Shown here: in pieces, positions 12,372 to 59,364 of the stretch
How the letters are laid out: each line of letters starts with the position of its first letter
Position numbering within the stretch: the first letter of the stretch is position 1
NCBI RefSeq assembly: GCF_030812335.1
Contig: NZ_JAUSSN010000001.1
Coordinates: 1-64,000, forward strand
Length of the DNA stretch: 64,000 nucleotides
From: Pseudarthrobacter oxydans
GTDB lineage: Bacteria > Actinomycetota > Actinomycetes > Actinomycetales > Micrococcaceae
Direction of reading: 5' to 3'
The notes under the pieces: generated by a model
What the model saw: only the letters and a program-made list of their open reading frames with translations
Databases searched by the model: none
Told to the model about the DNA's origin: nothing
Program-made: the position numbers and the translations under genes

Positions 12372-12441
12372 CCTTGCGGAAATTACGCAAACCTTTCGTA
12401 ACCTAATAGGCGGAACCGCAGCCCTACCCCCGCTTTAAATA

Positions 12442-12506
12442 GCAACGCGGGGTCACCTACGGCCCATCCCGGCGGGGATTATGGGCGGCTGGTGACCCCG
12501 CGTTGC
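12442..12506 (-). repeat. 65-bp palindromic repeat, copy 1
   Basis: Begins GCAACGCGGGGTCA and ends with its perfect complement TGACCCCGCGTTGC. An inner pair CGCCCAT / ATGGGC forms a second stem. The reverse complement matches copies 2 (58532-58596) and 3 (59236-59300), all exactly 65 bp. It starts 12 bp past the jetC stop in the orientation of jetC, suggesting a 3'-end structure. Confidence 0.85.
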
Positions 12507-12518
12507 TTGGGGCGGAGG

Positions 12519-15500
12519 TCAGCGGAGGACGATGTCCACCGGGTTCGCCTCGGAGCGCCAGGTCCCCTCGGTGCCGGGCCGCGGTCCGATGACGGGAGCG
12601 GTGAGCACGCCGGAACGATTGGTGCGCTTGTCCCGCAGGATCTCCGTGACGGAACCAAGGTGCCGGGACAGGTCGATCACGTTCTCGGGTGCGGCCAGGA
12701 GCAGCTGGAAACCGAACTCATGCAGCGCCTTGATCCCGGCGCCGGCGAATTCCTCCGAAGCCAGCACGAAGGCCTCGTCCATCATCACGGTGCCGTAGGT
12801 GGTGAAGCCCTGCTCGGCGATGCCCAGCTGGTAGCTCAGCGCCGCGGCCATGATGAATGCCGTGAAGCGCTGCCGCTCGCCGCCGGACATCGATCCGGTG
12901 TCCGCGTGCATAAAGACCTCGGTCTTCTTCCGCCCGCCCTTCGCCGCCCGCGAACCCTGGACCTCGCGGTGCTCCTTGCACTGGATAAAGAGGTGCCCGC
13001 GGACGTCCAGCACTTCGGCACGCCAGCGCCGGTCCTCGGGGGTCTGCGAGCCGAGCCGCTTGACGAGCGTTTCGAGCGACTTGTAGCGGTTGCCGAGCTC
13101 GGCGTCGTCGTCCGCTTCCGCGCCGGAAGCACCGGACGCCGGAGCGGCCGCCTTTCCGGGGCGGGTGTGCCGGACCTTCAGCGCGTTCTGGATCGCATCC
13201 TTGAACTGCTTGGCGGTGGCGGGCAGGGTCTGCTTGATGTCGAGTTCCAGGAAGCTGCCCTCATGGAAGTTCACCTCGGAGAGGATCCCGTTGAGCGGCA
13301 GGATGCGGCTGCTGATCGAGCGGCGCTCCTCGTCCAGCAGGTGCAGCAGGGTGCTGAAGGATTCGTGCGTGCGCTGGTTGAAGAACTGCCGGAATTCGGC
13401 TTCCTGCGCGGGAAGGCCGTCGCTGACGATGGCGTGGTAGCGGGCTTCGAACTCCCCCGCCGCGCCGATCGAGGTGCCGTGGTCCGCGGAAATCGCCGTT
13501 CCCCACTCGCGGACGAAGCCCTCGAAGATGCGCATGAGCCGCTCCGAGGTCGCCTGCCCGCGGGATTCGGCCGCGTGCAGCTCGGCGAGGAGCCGGGTCC
13601 GGACCTGGTTGGCGAGGTTGTCCAGCTCGTGCATTTCCAGGACGTCGCCGAAGTCCGCGAAGTACGGTTCCAGTGCCGTGACGGTGGCGTCCGACGGCGG
13701 CGCCTGCGCCAGGCGGTCCCTTGCGGCGTCCAGCAGCGAATCGGCGGAGGTCAGCTGCGCGTCAACTGCCTTGTATTCGCTTTGCAGCACGGCCGCGGCC
13801 TCGGTGCTGGACTGGTGCTTGTGCCGGGCCGCCTCGATGTTGGCCCGCAGCGGTTCCAGATCCGCCTGCGCGGCGAGGGCGTCCTTGAGCCGCTGCTCGA
13901 TCCGGGCGAGTTCGTCCGCGGCCACGGCGGCCGAGACCTGTTCCCAGGGCCGGTGGTCGTCGGCAACGCGGCGCAGGGCCTCGAGCTGCCGGCTCATTCC
14001 CTGGTGCGATTCCTCCCGGCTCTGCGCCAGCTCGGCGGCCTTGGCGAGTTCCTGCTGCAGGTCCTCGACCTGCGCGGCCACCAGCTCCAGTTTGGCGGCG
14101 TTGTCGAAGCCGAGGACATAGTCCTGCCGGCCGGTGAAACGGTCATCCTTTTCCACGGTATGGCGGTTGCGCTTGACCACACCGCCCAGGCTCAGGCCCT
14201 TGTCCAGCCGTGCCAGCTCGTCCGGGTCCTCAACGCAGGGGTAGGCGAAATCGAGGGCGATCCGTTCCCGGATCCACTCGCCCGCTTCCGCGGACGGTCC
14301 CATGATGAGGATGTCCAGTTTGGTGAGCAGATCGCCGTCGGCCGCGTCCTGCACGGCCAGCGCCCCGCCGGCGAGCGGCTTCGAGACGTCCACCGCCCGC
14401 AGCGCTCCGCGGACGGAATGGTCGTTGAGGTAGCGGGTCACGGCGCCGAAGTGCTCGCCGGGGACCAGCAGCGTGGTGGCGAGGCTGCGCAGCGCCCGCT
14501 CGGCGGCCGGCCGCCACCGTTCCTGGCCCTCCGCAAGGTCGATCAGCTCGCCGCCGAACGGCATCTGCTCCTCGGGCACGCCCGTGGCCGCGGCGATGGC
14601 GCTGCGGTTTTCAATGCTCGACGGCGGCAGCAGGGACTTGCGCGTCCTGAGCGACCCCAGTTCCTGCTGGGCCGCGGCGAGCTCGCGCTTCCTGGTCGCG
14701 TGGCCGTCGAACGCCTCGAAACGAAGCTCCTTGAGCGCCTCCGAATCGTCTTTCAGCTCGGCCGAGCGGGCGGCCGCATGCTCGTGGGCCTGCTCCCAGC
14801 CGGCCGCGGACCACTGAAGTTCCAGGCCGGCGTCGGAGAGGGCCTTCCGGGCCGATTCCTCGACCTGCTGGCGGAGCTTGAGCCCCACCCGGGCGTTCTC
14901 CAGCGCCTGCTCGATCGCGGAGATCGCGTTGCCGCCCTGGTTGTTGTAGTCCGCCTCGAGCTGCCGCAGTTCCTTGGCCAGGCCGTCCCGGATGCCGCGC
15001 TCGGCGCCGAGTTCCTTGGCCTTCGCCTGGGCCAGGTCCTTGAACCGGGCGAGCGTTTTCTCGTGGACCGTGACGGCCAGCTGCTGCCGGTAGGCCTCGA
15101 ATTCCTCGCCGGCCAGCTCCCGCAGGCGGTTCGCGTCCAGCAGCGACTGGGCATACTCCTTGTTCAGCCCGGGGACCGGGGCCAGCTGGTCGCGCTGCTG
15201 CCGGACGTCCTCGAGGCGCTGCCGGATCGACATCAGGTTGCTGAATTCCTCGACGACGTCATCGGCCGCCGTCAGCGTGGCGGGCGCGTCCAGGACCTGG
15301 TCCCGGAAGAAGTTGTTGACGCTGCCGCCGAGGCCCTTGCCGGCCTGGATGACCCGCAGCAGCGGCAGGGCCTGGTCCGAATTGATCCCGAGCAGGCGCC
15401 GGAAGCGTTCCGCGAAGGCCTTGTGCACGTCGAAGATCTGGGCGTCCGGGAAGAGCACGTCCAGCGCCGACTTGGTAAAGCGCTTCTCCGCGATGCCCTC

Positions 15501-15995
15501 GATTGCCGCGAGGTCCAGCGGCTTGTTGTCGATCAGGTAGTACCGGCCGACGCTGGACTCCGTGCCGTTCTTGGGCAGGTCGAACAGCGCCGATACGGTC
15601 ACCCGGGTGCCGGCGGCGTTGTCGAAGGTCAGCGCGACCGCGGACCAGGTGGCGCCGGGGCGCTGGAACGCACTCGCCGAGCCTTCGCCGACGGCTTTGT
15701 CCCCCACCTTGCCGCGCATGTAGGTGAAGGTGGTCCGCTTGTCCTCGACCGCGCCGCCCGCGCGCTGGGCCGCGGCCTCGTTGGAGCGCGGCCTGGCGTC
15801 GAAGACCCGGAGCATCGCGTCGAACAGCGTGGACTTGCCGACGCCGGAATTGCCGGTCAGCAGGGTGCCGTTGCGGTCCACGTGCATCGTGTGGGCGCCG
15901 TGGAAGGTGCCCCAGTTGACGACCTGGACCAGGGCGAGGCGCATCTGGCCAGGGTTCGTGAGCTCGCCCATCGGGAGCATGGTGGCGATGCTCAT
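12519..15995 (-). CDS. jetC: JetC/MksF: SMC-like ATPase of a Wadjet/MksBEF-type complex
   Basis: 1158 aa. The N-terminal ATPase half has Walker [10 protein letters not shown] at residues 48-56. The centre is a long charged, coiled-coil-forming region (about 260-850). The C-terminal half has the ABC signature MSGGERQR (about 1035) and Walker B VMMDEAF (about 1070), followed by the LLLAAPENV region. This is the domain plan of the SMC-like motor of the Wadjet/condensin-like family, which extrudes and recognises small circular DNA in known systems. All ATPase motifs look intact. Its ATG overlaps the jetB stop by 4 nt. The partner nuclease gene jetD normally found alongside is absent downstream, where only a 65-bp repeat and the iron operon follow. 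Confidence 0.9.
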
Positions 15996-17026
15996 TTGGC
16001 TGCCTCTGCTTCGGTGTGGCTGGGTGACGCCGACGGCGATGCCGCCCCCGCCCCTTCGCCGCGCAGCTGATCTTCGATCAGCTCAGCGCGCGACTCCGAC
16101 AGGCCCGATGCCACTCCCTGGGCGGCATCGCCATCGTCGTCTTCGTCGCTCAGCTCACCTTGGGCGGCATCGCCGTCGTCGTCTTCGCTGTCCGTGTCGG
16201 CTGCTTCGTCGTTGTCGTCGTCACCTTCGGCGTCCTCATCCGCGCGAGCTGGCTTGTCGCCGTCGAACTCCAGCAGGGGTTCGGTGCCGGACTGGTCGGT
16301 GCTGGCGGCTACCAGGGCGTCGATTTGGGCGGGGATGTCGCCGATGTTTTCGAAGGGGAGGGCCAGGGGGAGGGCGTTGGAGATGGTGTAGACGTCGTCG
16401 AGGCCGGTGGCGAGGAGGAGCTGGCGGGCCAGGAGTTTGGTGATGGCGCGGTTGACGACGTCGGAATCGCGCAGGGCGTCCTGCTGGCCGGCCGGCTGGT
16501 AGTGGGCCACGAGTTCGGCGATTTCCTCGCGCGTGATCGTGGGGTCGGTCTGTGCCGTGACGTGGCGGTCCAGGAGCAGGCGCAGGCGGAGCAACACGAT
16601 GGTTTCGACCCGGCTCAGGGCCCGCTGCTGGCGCAGGATGCTGGAGCGGGTGCTGCCGCCGATGGCCTCGGGGTCCACCGGGCGCAGGACGGCCACCTTG
16701 CGTTCGTGGTCCAGCTGCAGGGTCAGGAAGAGTTCGGACAGGCGGCTGCGCAGGATCAGCTGGTTGTCCAGGAGCGTGGTCCAGAGCTTTTCGTCCCGGC
16801 CGCCGTCGATGTACGGGCCTTTGAGGAGCTTCACGAGGGCCTGGCGGACCTTCATCGGGAGCACGCCGGTGTCACCCGGGAAGAGCGCAGCGCCGTCGAC
16901 GAACGTGTCCCGCGGGGTGACCGTGAACGGGGCGGCGTGGACATGCCGGGCGGGCTCCGCGGCCGCGGGGGCACCCTCGGCTGCCTCGGCCGTGTCTTCC
17001 ACTGCCGCGTGGGAAAGTTCAGTCAT
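15992..17026 (-). CDS. jetB: JetB/MksE: DUF4194 subunit of the SMC-like complex
   Basis: 344 aa. A DUF4194 winged-helix kite-like core spans about residues 40-240 ([34 protein letters not shown]). Family members bridge the kleisin and the SMC-like ATPase. The last 100 residues are highly acidic and contain an imperfect 14-aa tandem repeat with core [10 protein letters not shown] twice (DNA about 16120-16190). The ATG lies 2 nt after the jetA stop with AAGGA upstream; the end overlaps jetC. The acidic tail is unusual and may be a disordered or DNA-mimicking segment; this is inference. Confidence 0.85.
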
Positions 17027-17028
17027 CT

Positions 17029-18477
17029 TCAGTCCTTCTTGAGCGTGACGACCGGCAGGTACGCGGTGCGCGTGGAGCCGTCGATCTGTTCGAAGTCGAG
17101 GGTGTCCCACGCCTCACGGTCAAAGCCGGCACCCTCGTGCAGGGCGTGGGAGAGCAGGGCGCGGATCGAGTTGATGTGGCGTTCGCCGGGCGGGAGCTGC
17201 TCCCAGGCCTCGGCCAGGGTGGAGGCGCCGGCGAACGCGGCGCGGATCCCCGCGGGGCTGGCTTTGCCGGTCCGCGGCGAGCGCACCCGGTCCGAGTCGC
17301 TGAAGGCGATCGGGTCGGCCAGCTTGGGCGGGGCCGCGAACTCGTCCGGATCGAACAGCTTGACCATGGACAGGGACTCGAAGCCGGCGTTGAACAGCAC
17401 CGGGCCGCGGACCAGTCCGGGGCGTTCGCGCTCGTACGGCAGCGACCGGATGGCCTGCTCGGCCTCCCGGAGGACCTTGCGGAGCCGGACCGACTGGCGG
17501 AAGTCGTCGCTCTGGACGTACGTGTTCAGGCTTTCGCTGAGCTTGCCGTAAATCCGCTGGATCTGGCTGTGCTGGGTCCGCAGTTCCGCGACCAGGTTCT
17601 TCAGGGTCTCGCGTTCCTCATGGCTGAGGTCATCGGCGAACTGCCTGCTGAGCACCTCGCCGATCGCAGACCGGAACCGGAGCTGCTGTTGCGGATCCTC
17701 CAGGAACGCCGTGAAGGAACGGAACGTCCGCCCCTCGGGGCTCTGCCGGAGCCGCTTGTCTGCTTCCAGGACCTGGGCCATCGTGGCGCCCTTGCTGAGG
17801 GACTCCTCGATGATCTGGTTGCGGAGCTCGCCCACCAGTTCCTCGATCCGGTCACGCATCTTCTTGTAGTCCGCGGGCAGGCTCCCGGCGAGGTCCAGGA
17901 TATTCCCGGCGGCCTCCACGGCCTCCTCGTCGTCGAGCAGCCCGTCGAAGTCCCCCGAGCTGATGTCCTCGATCAGCTGGCGCCGTTCACCGATCTCTTC
18001 CTCCAGGGACTCCAGCCGGGCGCTCTGGTCCGGGTTCGTCTCATTGGCGAGCTTCTCGACGTCGCCCAGCAGCGTGCCGAGCCGCGACCCGTTGAGCGTG
18101 GAGCGTTCGCTGGAGAGGCTGTCCAGGAAAGCGATGACACGGGCGGCCGGTTCGGTGACCTCGTACACGATCTGCCCGGACTGGTTCCGCCGGGTCAGAA
18201 AGTTCTTGCGGGTCCACTCATCGCCGAACGTCTTCCCGTTCGCGGCGCCGCCCAGCCCCGGGTCCTGGCGGCGGAGCTGTTCAAGGAAGGCGTCGACGTC
18301 GGCGTGGAACTGTTCCAGCGGAAGCTGCGGCCGGGTGCGGGTGAAGGACGCCTGCAGCACGGCGATGACCCACGGCGCCGAGCGGGTCAGCGCCCAGGCG
18401 GGACCCTTGGTGAGGAGTTCGAGGTCCCTCAGCCGGGCGCTGATGGCGTCGGCGGAGGACAGGGCGGAGCGGGACAC
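17029..18477 (-). CDS. jetA: JetA/MksB: DUF3375 kleisin-like subunit
   Basis: 482 aa, matching the DUF3375 family length. The start [20 protein letters not shown] and the middle [20 protein letters not shown] are typical. It is the kleisin-like member that links SMC heads in Wadjet type I/MksB complexes. The GTG start is preceded by AGGAGG at the right spacing. It opens the jetA-jetB-jetC operon; tight spacing implies stoichiometric production. Confidence 0.88.
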
Positions 18478-58521: not shown

Positions 58522-58531
58522 CCCCCTTCAG

Positions 58532-58596
58532 GCAACGCGGGGTCAGCCATCGCCCGTGGTGGGCGCCGGGATGGGCCGGAAATGAACCCGCGTTGC
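58532..58596 (+). repeat. 65-bp palindromic repeat, copy 2
   Basis: GCAACGCGGGGTCA...TGAACCCGCGTTGC with one mismatch in the outer arms and the inner pair CGCCCGT/ATGGGC. It begins 10 bp beyond the stop of the GNAT-AAA gene, in the gene's orientation. See 12442-12506. Confidence 0.85.
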
Positions 58597-58623: not shown

Positions 58624-59289
58624 GTGGTCCTGTTCCTGACGGTGGTGAGCGGCCTCGCCTGGACCGCGGTGTACGTCGATGCCATCCGAATCGGGTTCCG
58701 GGACAGAAGCTACGCGATCCCGGCCGCGGCGCTCGGACTCAATTTCGCCTGGGAGACCATTTATGCCGCCCGCTCCGTTGCGACCGGCATCTCCACCCAG
58801 GGGGTCTTCAACATCGTGTGGGCCCTCGCCGACGTCGTGATTGTGTACACCTTCCTCAGGTTCGGCCGGTCCGAGCTGCCAGCGTGGGTGACGCGGAGGC
58901 TCTTCATCGGCTGGGCGCTCCTGTTGGGCGCCACGTCGTTCGCGGTTCAGCTGCTTTTCGTGGTCGAGTTCGGCTGGGAGGACGCGCCGCGTTACGCGGC
59001 GTTCCTGCAGAACCTGCTGATGTCCGGGCTGTTCATCGCCTTGTTTGTTGCCCGCCAGGGACCCCGCGGCCAGACACTGCTGATCGCCGTGGCAAAGTGG
59101 ATCGGGACACTGGCACCCACCATCGTGTTCGGCTGGTACGGCAACTCGCCGCTGATTCTGGGCGTCGGCGTCCTCTGCAGCGTCTTCGATCTGGCCTACA
59201 TCGGCCTGCTGTGGCGGGCAAGATCCCCGGCAAACGCAACGCGGGGTCAGCTTTCGCCCATGGCCGGCCCCGGGATGGGCGCCAGATGA
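58624..59289 (+). CDS. Membrane protein resembling Pyr4/PaxB-type terpene cyclases
   Basis: 221 aa with about seven transmembrane helices. The N-terminus VSGLAWTAVYVDAIRIGFRD, then ALGLNFAWETIYAA with conserved Trp-Glu and LADVVIVYTFLRFG, and the final VFDLAYIGLLW resemble the Pyr4/PaxB family, in which a Glu and an Asp are essential. Fungal and some bacterial members cyclise polyprenyl chains; that function is not shown here and no prenyltransferase lies nearby. The GTG start follows AAAGGGGAATCC. The stop codon and the last residues lie inside repeat copy 3. Confidence 0.6.
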   Translation: MVLFLTVVSGLAWTAVYVDAIRIGFRDRSYAIPAAALGLNFAWETIYAARSVATGISTQGVFNIVWALADVVIVYTFLRFGRSELPAWVTRRLFIGWALLLGATSFAVQLLFVVEFGWEDAPRYAAFLQNLLMSGLFIALFVARQGPRGQTLLIAVAKWIGTLAPTIVFGWYGNSPLILGVGVLCSVFDLAYIGLLWRARSPANATRGQLSPMAGPGMGAR

Positions 59290-59300
59290 CCCCGGGTTGC
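59236..59300 (+). repeat. 65-bp palindromic repeat, copy 3
   Basis: GCAACGCGGGGTCA...TGACCCCGGGTTGC, with one outer mismatch and the inner pair CGCCCAT/ATGGGC. It overlaps the end of the membrane protein gene and supplies its stop codon (59287-59289). Confidence 0.85.
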
Positions 59301-59364
59301 TATCAGGGGACGACGGCGGACGCGGCTTCGGAACTGAACCCGGCCGGCCCTGCGGTGTGCCGGG

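Follow-up and report, generated by a model that had tools for sequence, protein, structure and literature searches.

The present analysis concerns the first 64,000 nucleotides of contig NZ_JAUSSN010000001.1 of Pseudarthrobacter oxydans (assembly GCF_030812335.1; the whole stretch is referred to as the window) and therein an operon of three genes, jetA, jetB and jetC (Table 1), which an earlier note, made from the sequence alone, had described as a Wadjet or MksBEF operon without its nuclease gene jetD. The three genes were indeed found intact and tightly coupled, with a 2-bp gap between jetA and jetB and a 4-bp overlap (ATGA) between jetB and jetC, and DUF3375, DUF4194 and an SMC-like (structural maintenance of chromosomes) ATPase are all present in the one operon. 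In Pfam searches JetA matched DUF3375 (E 1.7e-86), JetB matched DUF4194 (E 7.6e-29, 101 bits) and JetC matched both a P-loop family (AAA_29) and SbcC_Walker_B; against the MksE model PF21980 JetB scored 24.8 bits, below the cut-off of 27. This model we take to be the family of Pseudomonas aeruginosa-type MksE. Among PDB sequences solved JetC and JetA chains were matched with best E values of 1.1e-55 and 4.2e-22, respectively, and no chain was found for JetB at E <= 1. Judged by these family matches, jetABC is predicted to encode a complete ATP-driven SMC complex of the Wadjet group, with JetC as SMC protein, JetA as kleisin and JetB as KITE (kleisin-interacting tandem winged-helix element) subunit.

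Table 1. Features of the jetABC locus, with positions counted from the first letter of the window.
Feature	Position	Strand	Description and matches
jetA / mksF-like	17029..18477	-	kleisin, 482 aa, GTG start; Pfam DUF3375, PADLOC JetA1, PDB JetA chains
jetB / mksE-like	15992..17026	-	KITE subunit, 344 aa from ATG at 17026, acidic C-terminal tail; Pfam DUF4194, PADLOC JetB1
jetC / mksB-like	12519..15995	-	SMC ATPase, 1158 aa; Pfam AAA_29 and SbcC_Walker_B, PADLOC JetC1, PDB JetC chains
palindrome	12441..12507		inverted repeat separating jetC from the iron operon; a member of a dispersed repeat family that does not belong to the complex

No jetD follows jetC in the operon, as had been stated before, and the suggestion that the gene might sit elsewhere in the genome was not supported: neither JetD_C (PF09983) nor DUF3322 (PF11795) gave a match anywhere in the 4,626,412 bases of the assembly (30 contigs, 99.99% complete). 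The 14 control genomes included that of Corynebacterium glutamicum, where both domains were recovered. The absence extends to the relatives. In an even draw of 245 genomes of the host family some JetA match was detected in 141, and 115 of the 245 carried the type found in the window (here the focal type, scoring at least 341 bits, with the next score at 154.5). From the 114 other focal genomes operon loci were fetched for 85, which together with the window makes 86, and a jetD profile search gave no match in any of the 85, five of which have too little sequence downstream (less than 300 bases after jetC, or jetC itself cut: L127, L134, L135, L142, L146). The same profile matched 24/24 JetD-bearing control loci, a control that is partly circular, as some of its 11 seeds share genomes with these loci. 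Likewise, jetD was found neither in the window nor in the operons of 80 named relatives, the best 80 of 208 found, which include by name Arthrobacter, Pseudarthrobacter and Paenarthrobacter; 77 of these 81 loci include 3 kb or more downstream, and four of the named ones less than 1.1 kb. A jetD hidden behind jetC was thus looked for by profile in the fetched loci of the focal clade and rejected, and so was a cryptic fourth gene: in an all-against-all BLAST of the flanks of the 86 loci the most widespread open reading frame reached 6 of the 11 genus groups (20 loci), and no flanking gene was common to all of them, the flanks covering about 3 kb upstream and hence only part of a RecB-helicase gene considered below. 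One of the fetched focal operons, L127 (genome G210), is the only one in which jetA lies apart from jetB, at about 5.3 kb.

In the examined operons, then, jetD is absent across a clade of 11 genus groups. The earlier note had itself held that relatives lacking the gene throughout would speak against a Wadjet deprived of its nuclease, and a consistent absence is what the comparison of the junction revealed. The operon is not a damaged Wadjet; it is intact and old, and this lineage of soil bacteria has been without the cutting subunit for a long time. The name ‘Wadjet’ finds no support, since no focal-clade operon examined contains jetD.

Within the host genus the operon behaves as a core component. 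A JetA match was obtained in 197 of 198 genomes and in 187/187 of those of good quality; the single genome without one, G629, has a completeness of 68%, and G712 (63%) yielded only a weak match, perhaps to a fragment or to a different type. Order-wide, all 19 focal-level matches among 396 genomes fell within the host family, the next score being 155. JetD_C is distributed differently: it was detected in 61/245 family genomes and patchily in the genus (87/198 genomes), where several copies are fragmentary or contain stops, as if the JetD-bearing systems of the genus decayed often. Short or stop-bearing matches were seen in the genus genomes G622, G664, G665, G668, G699, G722, G748, G774 and G775.

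The descent of the operon was followed in trees of JetA (67 rows) and JetC (65 rows), which include 21 of the 86 focal operons and are quick trees without bootstrap, carrying a long-branch warning. In both, the focal rows form one clade with support 100. The nearest group (support 96 and 98) is another set in which jetD is mostly missing, drawn from other families within the order and two genus groups of the host family; 1 of its 20 rows (L187) has jetD, a proportion that means little, as members were picked mostly for being JetD-less. The clade from the other families comprises L166, L167, L184-L186, L188-L197 and L208-L212, with the JetD-bearing L187 nested inside; jetD seems to have been lost or gained more than once. 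That an ancestor possessed JetD, which was then lost, is likelier than a gain, since operons with jetD share one gene order, with jetD behind jetC, though the trees cannot separate the two. In a further JetD-less set of the order (group f11: L173, L174, L176-L178, L180-L182) jetA stands about 1.5-5.6 kb from jetB, the gap in L173 being occupied by a major facilitator superfamily transporter and an MmyB-like regulator.

Members of a genus group have jetA at comparable distances from dnaA (g24, 43-63 kb; g32, 235-245 kb; g7, 438-519 kb; g1, 192-440 kb), which indicates vertical inheritance, and the focal operon was apparently passed on in this way. Measured as a fraction of the half-chromosome, the distance was within 0.38 in 31/31 genomes, drawn from 9 genus groups, a count that has no control gene set beside it and leaves out 6 of 37 genomes (G000, G236, G159, G172, G156, G190).

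The genes are under purifying selection, the median ratio of nonsynonymous to synonymous substitution rates against the 80 named relatives being 0.079 for jetA, 0.237 for jetB, whose ends vary, and 0.091 for jetC. The earlier statement that the ATPase motifs of JetC look functional was upheld: Walker A, signature and Walker B are intact in the window, and in the focal alignment they are preserved in 86/86, 85/86 and 85/86 sequences, the miss being a sequence cut by the end of its locus. The gene jetC is not full length in two loci, L291, where it is cut by the contig end, and L261, where it is read in two frames; in the latter (L261:12338-15891) two overlapping open reading frames point to a genuine frameshift or an assembly error, a case seen in one of the 80 named loci. 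The signature reads SGGE in focal JetC and SGGQ in most sampled JetD-bearing JetC, a difference that runs parallel to the clades and carries no weight of its own as evidence. The acidic tail of JetB was considered as a marker of JetD-less complexes and discarded as not diagnostic: all genus groups have it, and so do most of the JetD-bearing JetB measured.

Taken together, the operon probably encodes an SMC complex that derives from Wadjet, lacks the nuclease, resembles MksBEF and has a housekeeping role in organising DNA beside Smc-ScpAB. Among the three options of the earlier note (jetD elsewhere, jetD lost, or a chromosome-organising role as in MksBEF) the last is thus the best supported; the absence of the nuclease was confirmed, and the role is one suggested by the company and history of the genes. 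By analogy with its family, JetC would be an ATP-driven motor that loads onto DNA and extrudes loops, and JetA and JetB would link and gate the JetC heads; without JetD the motor would remain, capable of organising DNA and not of cleaving it, so that the complex might serve as a second chromosomal condensin beside Smc-ScpAB, like MksBEF of P. aeruginosa. ScpB was found alongside jetABC, and in the genome of the window the search was for ScpB alone. A housekeeping function would fit better than defence because of the core presence, the vertical-looking inheritance, the constraint on the genes and the coexistence with ScpB and, often, with a JetD gene located separately.

Several observations weigh against this reading. 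The defence finder PADLOC names the proteins Wadjet JetA1 (861 bits), JetB1 (523 bits) and JetC1 (1160 bits); 130 of the 245 family genomes do without the focal JetA type; in 39/115 focal genomes, none of them in the host genus, jetA is preceded on its own strand by a nuclease-helicase gene, which would be compatible with a new effector; and the region of JetB aligned with the motif that contacts JetD is still conserved (LFxGDxG, against mostly LWxGDxG in JetD-bearing systems), the contacting motif at the JetB N-terminus being given as IFDR in the accessible part of a review (PMC10586767). Proximity to the origin was dismissed as a specific trait, as the JetD genes of G182, G192 and G180 also lie about 310-350 kb from dnaA.

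With Wadjet type I (JetABCD, also MksBEFG or EptABCD) the focal complex shares the JetA, JetB and JetC families, the gene order and the ATPase motifs; it differs in having no jetD in operon or genome and in the SGGE signature. MksBEF of P. aeruginosa is likewise a three-gene SMC complex without a nuclease that coexists with Smc-ScpAB; according to the available portions of the sources it organises and segregates the chromosome (PMC7485682) and is taken to have lost JetD (review, PMC10586767). It differs from the focal system, whose JetB matches DUF4194 and scores below the cut-off of MksE, and in which a role on the chromosome is putative. The MksBEFG of C. glutamicum is an actinobacterial complex of the same kind, also coexisting with Smc-ScpAB, but possesses the MksG (JetD) nuclease that the focal complex is without, and is described, in the text accessible, as acting on plasmids and not folding the chromosome (PMC7083940, PMC10123090). 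For MukBEF no match was reported in profile scans of the window proteins, and no direct comparison with it was made. Lacking both the JetD that membership of Wadjet would demand and a sequence match to MksE above cut-off, the focal system would nevertheless most likely work like MksBEF.

In the literature searched, where most subscription papers were not covered, no account was found of JetABC as a JetD-less core complex in the host family. The nearest case is Paenarthrobacter lasiusi S21, for which ‘Wadjet: JetA, JetB, JetC’ is listed as defence in Table 6 of a 2024 genome paper (PMC11719660). As far as the accessible part of that paper goes, this member of a related genus has the same three genes with no JetD, a full type I system lies on another contig and the missing JetD is not discussed; the likeness is one of gene lists. 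A survey, as available in part, gives Wadjet in 42% of Actinobacteria (PMC10482375), and PADLOC labels the core nuclease-free complex as Wadjet. With a core nuclease-free JetABC and, in 87/198 genus genomes, JetD_C as well, the Arthrobacter group allows both kinds to be compared in close relatives. Tentatively, it may be proposed that a plasmid-defence SMC complex became a second, core chromosomal condensin through nuclease loss in the ancestor of much of the family, separately from MksBEF of P. aeruginosa, and that JetD-bearing Wadjets continue to come and go in these very genomes. If true, this would exemplify, inside one family, the route from defence systems that has been proposed for condensins of the MukBEF/MksBEF type.

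The main rival, which we regard as rather unlikely, is a JetD-free system against plasmids or phages that compacts or silences circular DNA or hands it over to an unlinked host nuclease. The sequence is closest to Wadjet type I subunits by PADLOC, and a non-cleaving model of Smc5/6 against viral circles is presented in the part of a review that was available. However, the focal operon is near-universal in the genus and apparently vertical, whereas JetD-bearing systems are patchy and include several fragments. Moreover, focal-type JetA was encountered on 2 of 72,556 plasmid records, both above 750 kb (754 kb and 1.35 Mb). Among 50,697 phage records there was no focal-type JetA, the single phage match being divergent.

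It is improbable that JetD was replaced by the gene upstream of jetA, a TM0106-type RecB-like nuclease fused to an IGHMBP2-like helicase, which was first noticed beside jetA on an Arthrobacter megaplasmid. The association recorded above as a point against the housekeeping role would favour replacement, and in five g24 genomes the distance to the jetA match is 70-119 bp; elsewhere it reaches up to 14.8 kb. The upstream gene is confined to g17, g22, g23, g24 and g30 (39/49 genomes there, 0/66 in the others), the operon-bearing g19 and g32 gave no match at E 1e-60, in the genome of the window the gene lies on another contig, and the match is interrupted by an in-frame stop in 6 of the 15 g23 copies. 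The nuclease-helicase is therefore no general replacement of JetD, given its restriction to five groups, its place on another contig in the genome of the window and the stops in g23, and an inherited neighbourhood would explain the association. A new partnership is possible in that sub-branch, where the gene may have been coupled anew to the nuclease-free complex. Individual copies were noted at L293:5181-8801 and, also upstream of jetA, in L130, L133 and L137.

Still less probable is that JetD acts in trans, coming from the second Wadjet system, with JetD, that some genomes possess. Besides jetABC, 37 of the 115 focal family genomes have JetD_C, but 78 have none, that of the window included. 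In the 37 it lies on the same contig in 12, at least 267 kb from jetA, and on another contig in 25; in the 34 genus genomes where one contig carries both JetD_C and jetA, they are 959 kb or more apart. Of 14 JetD_C loci of focal genomes examined, those with full context carry their own jetABC.

A recent deletion of jetD by recombination at a repeat, with the remaining genes decaying, is hardly credible: a repeat does sit at the junction, but it stands within 600 bases of jetC in only 17 of the 81 loci and is absent there in 64, no locus has a jetD match, the absence spans 11 genus groups, and the genes are intact and under purifying selection, so that the relatives contradict the deletion and the palindrome is not needed to explain the missing gene.

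The repeat itself, announced as one of 65 bp, is present and proved to be a single 67-bp inverted repeat with arms at 12441-12467 and 12481-12507. As RNA it folds far more stably than shuffled sequences (z -8.7), and the half-site was matched 64 times genome-wide (35 forward, 29 reverse, at most 2 mismatches), compared with 2 for a reversed control pattern; it is perhaps a dispersed element resembling REP (repetitive extragenic palindromic) sequences. In the window such elements occur at 12441-12507, 58531-58546 and 59235-59301. Beyond the palindrome the iron operon had been recognised correctly, the next genes on the - strand encoding a periplasmic binding protein, two FecCD permeases, an ABC (ATP-binding cassette) ATPase and a siderophore-interacting protein.

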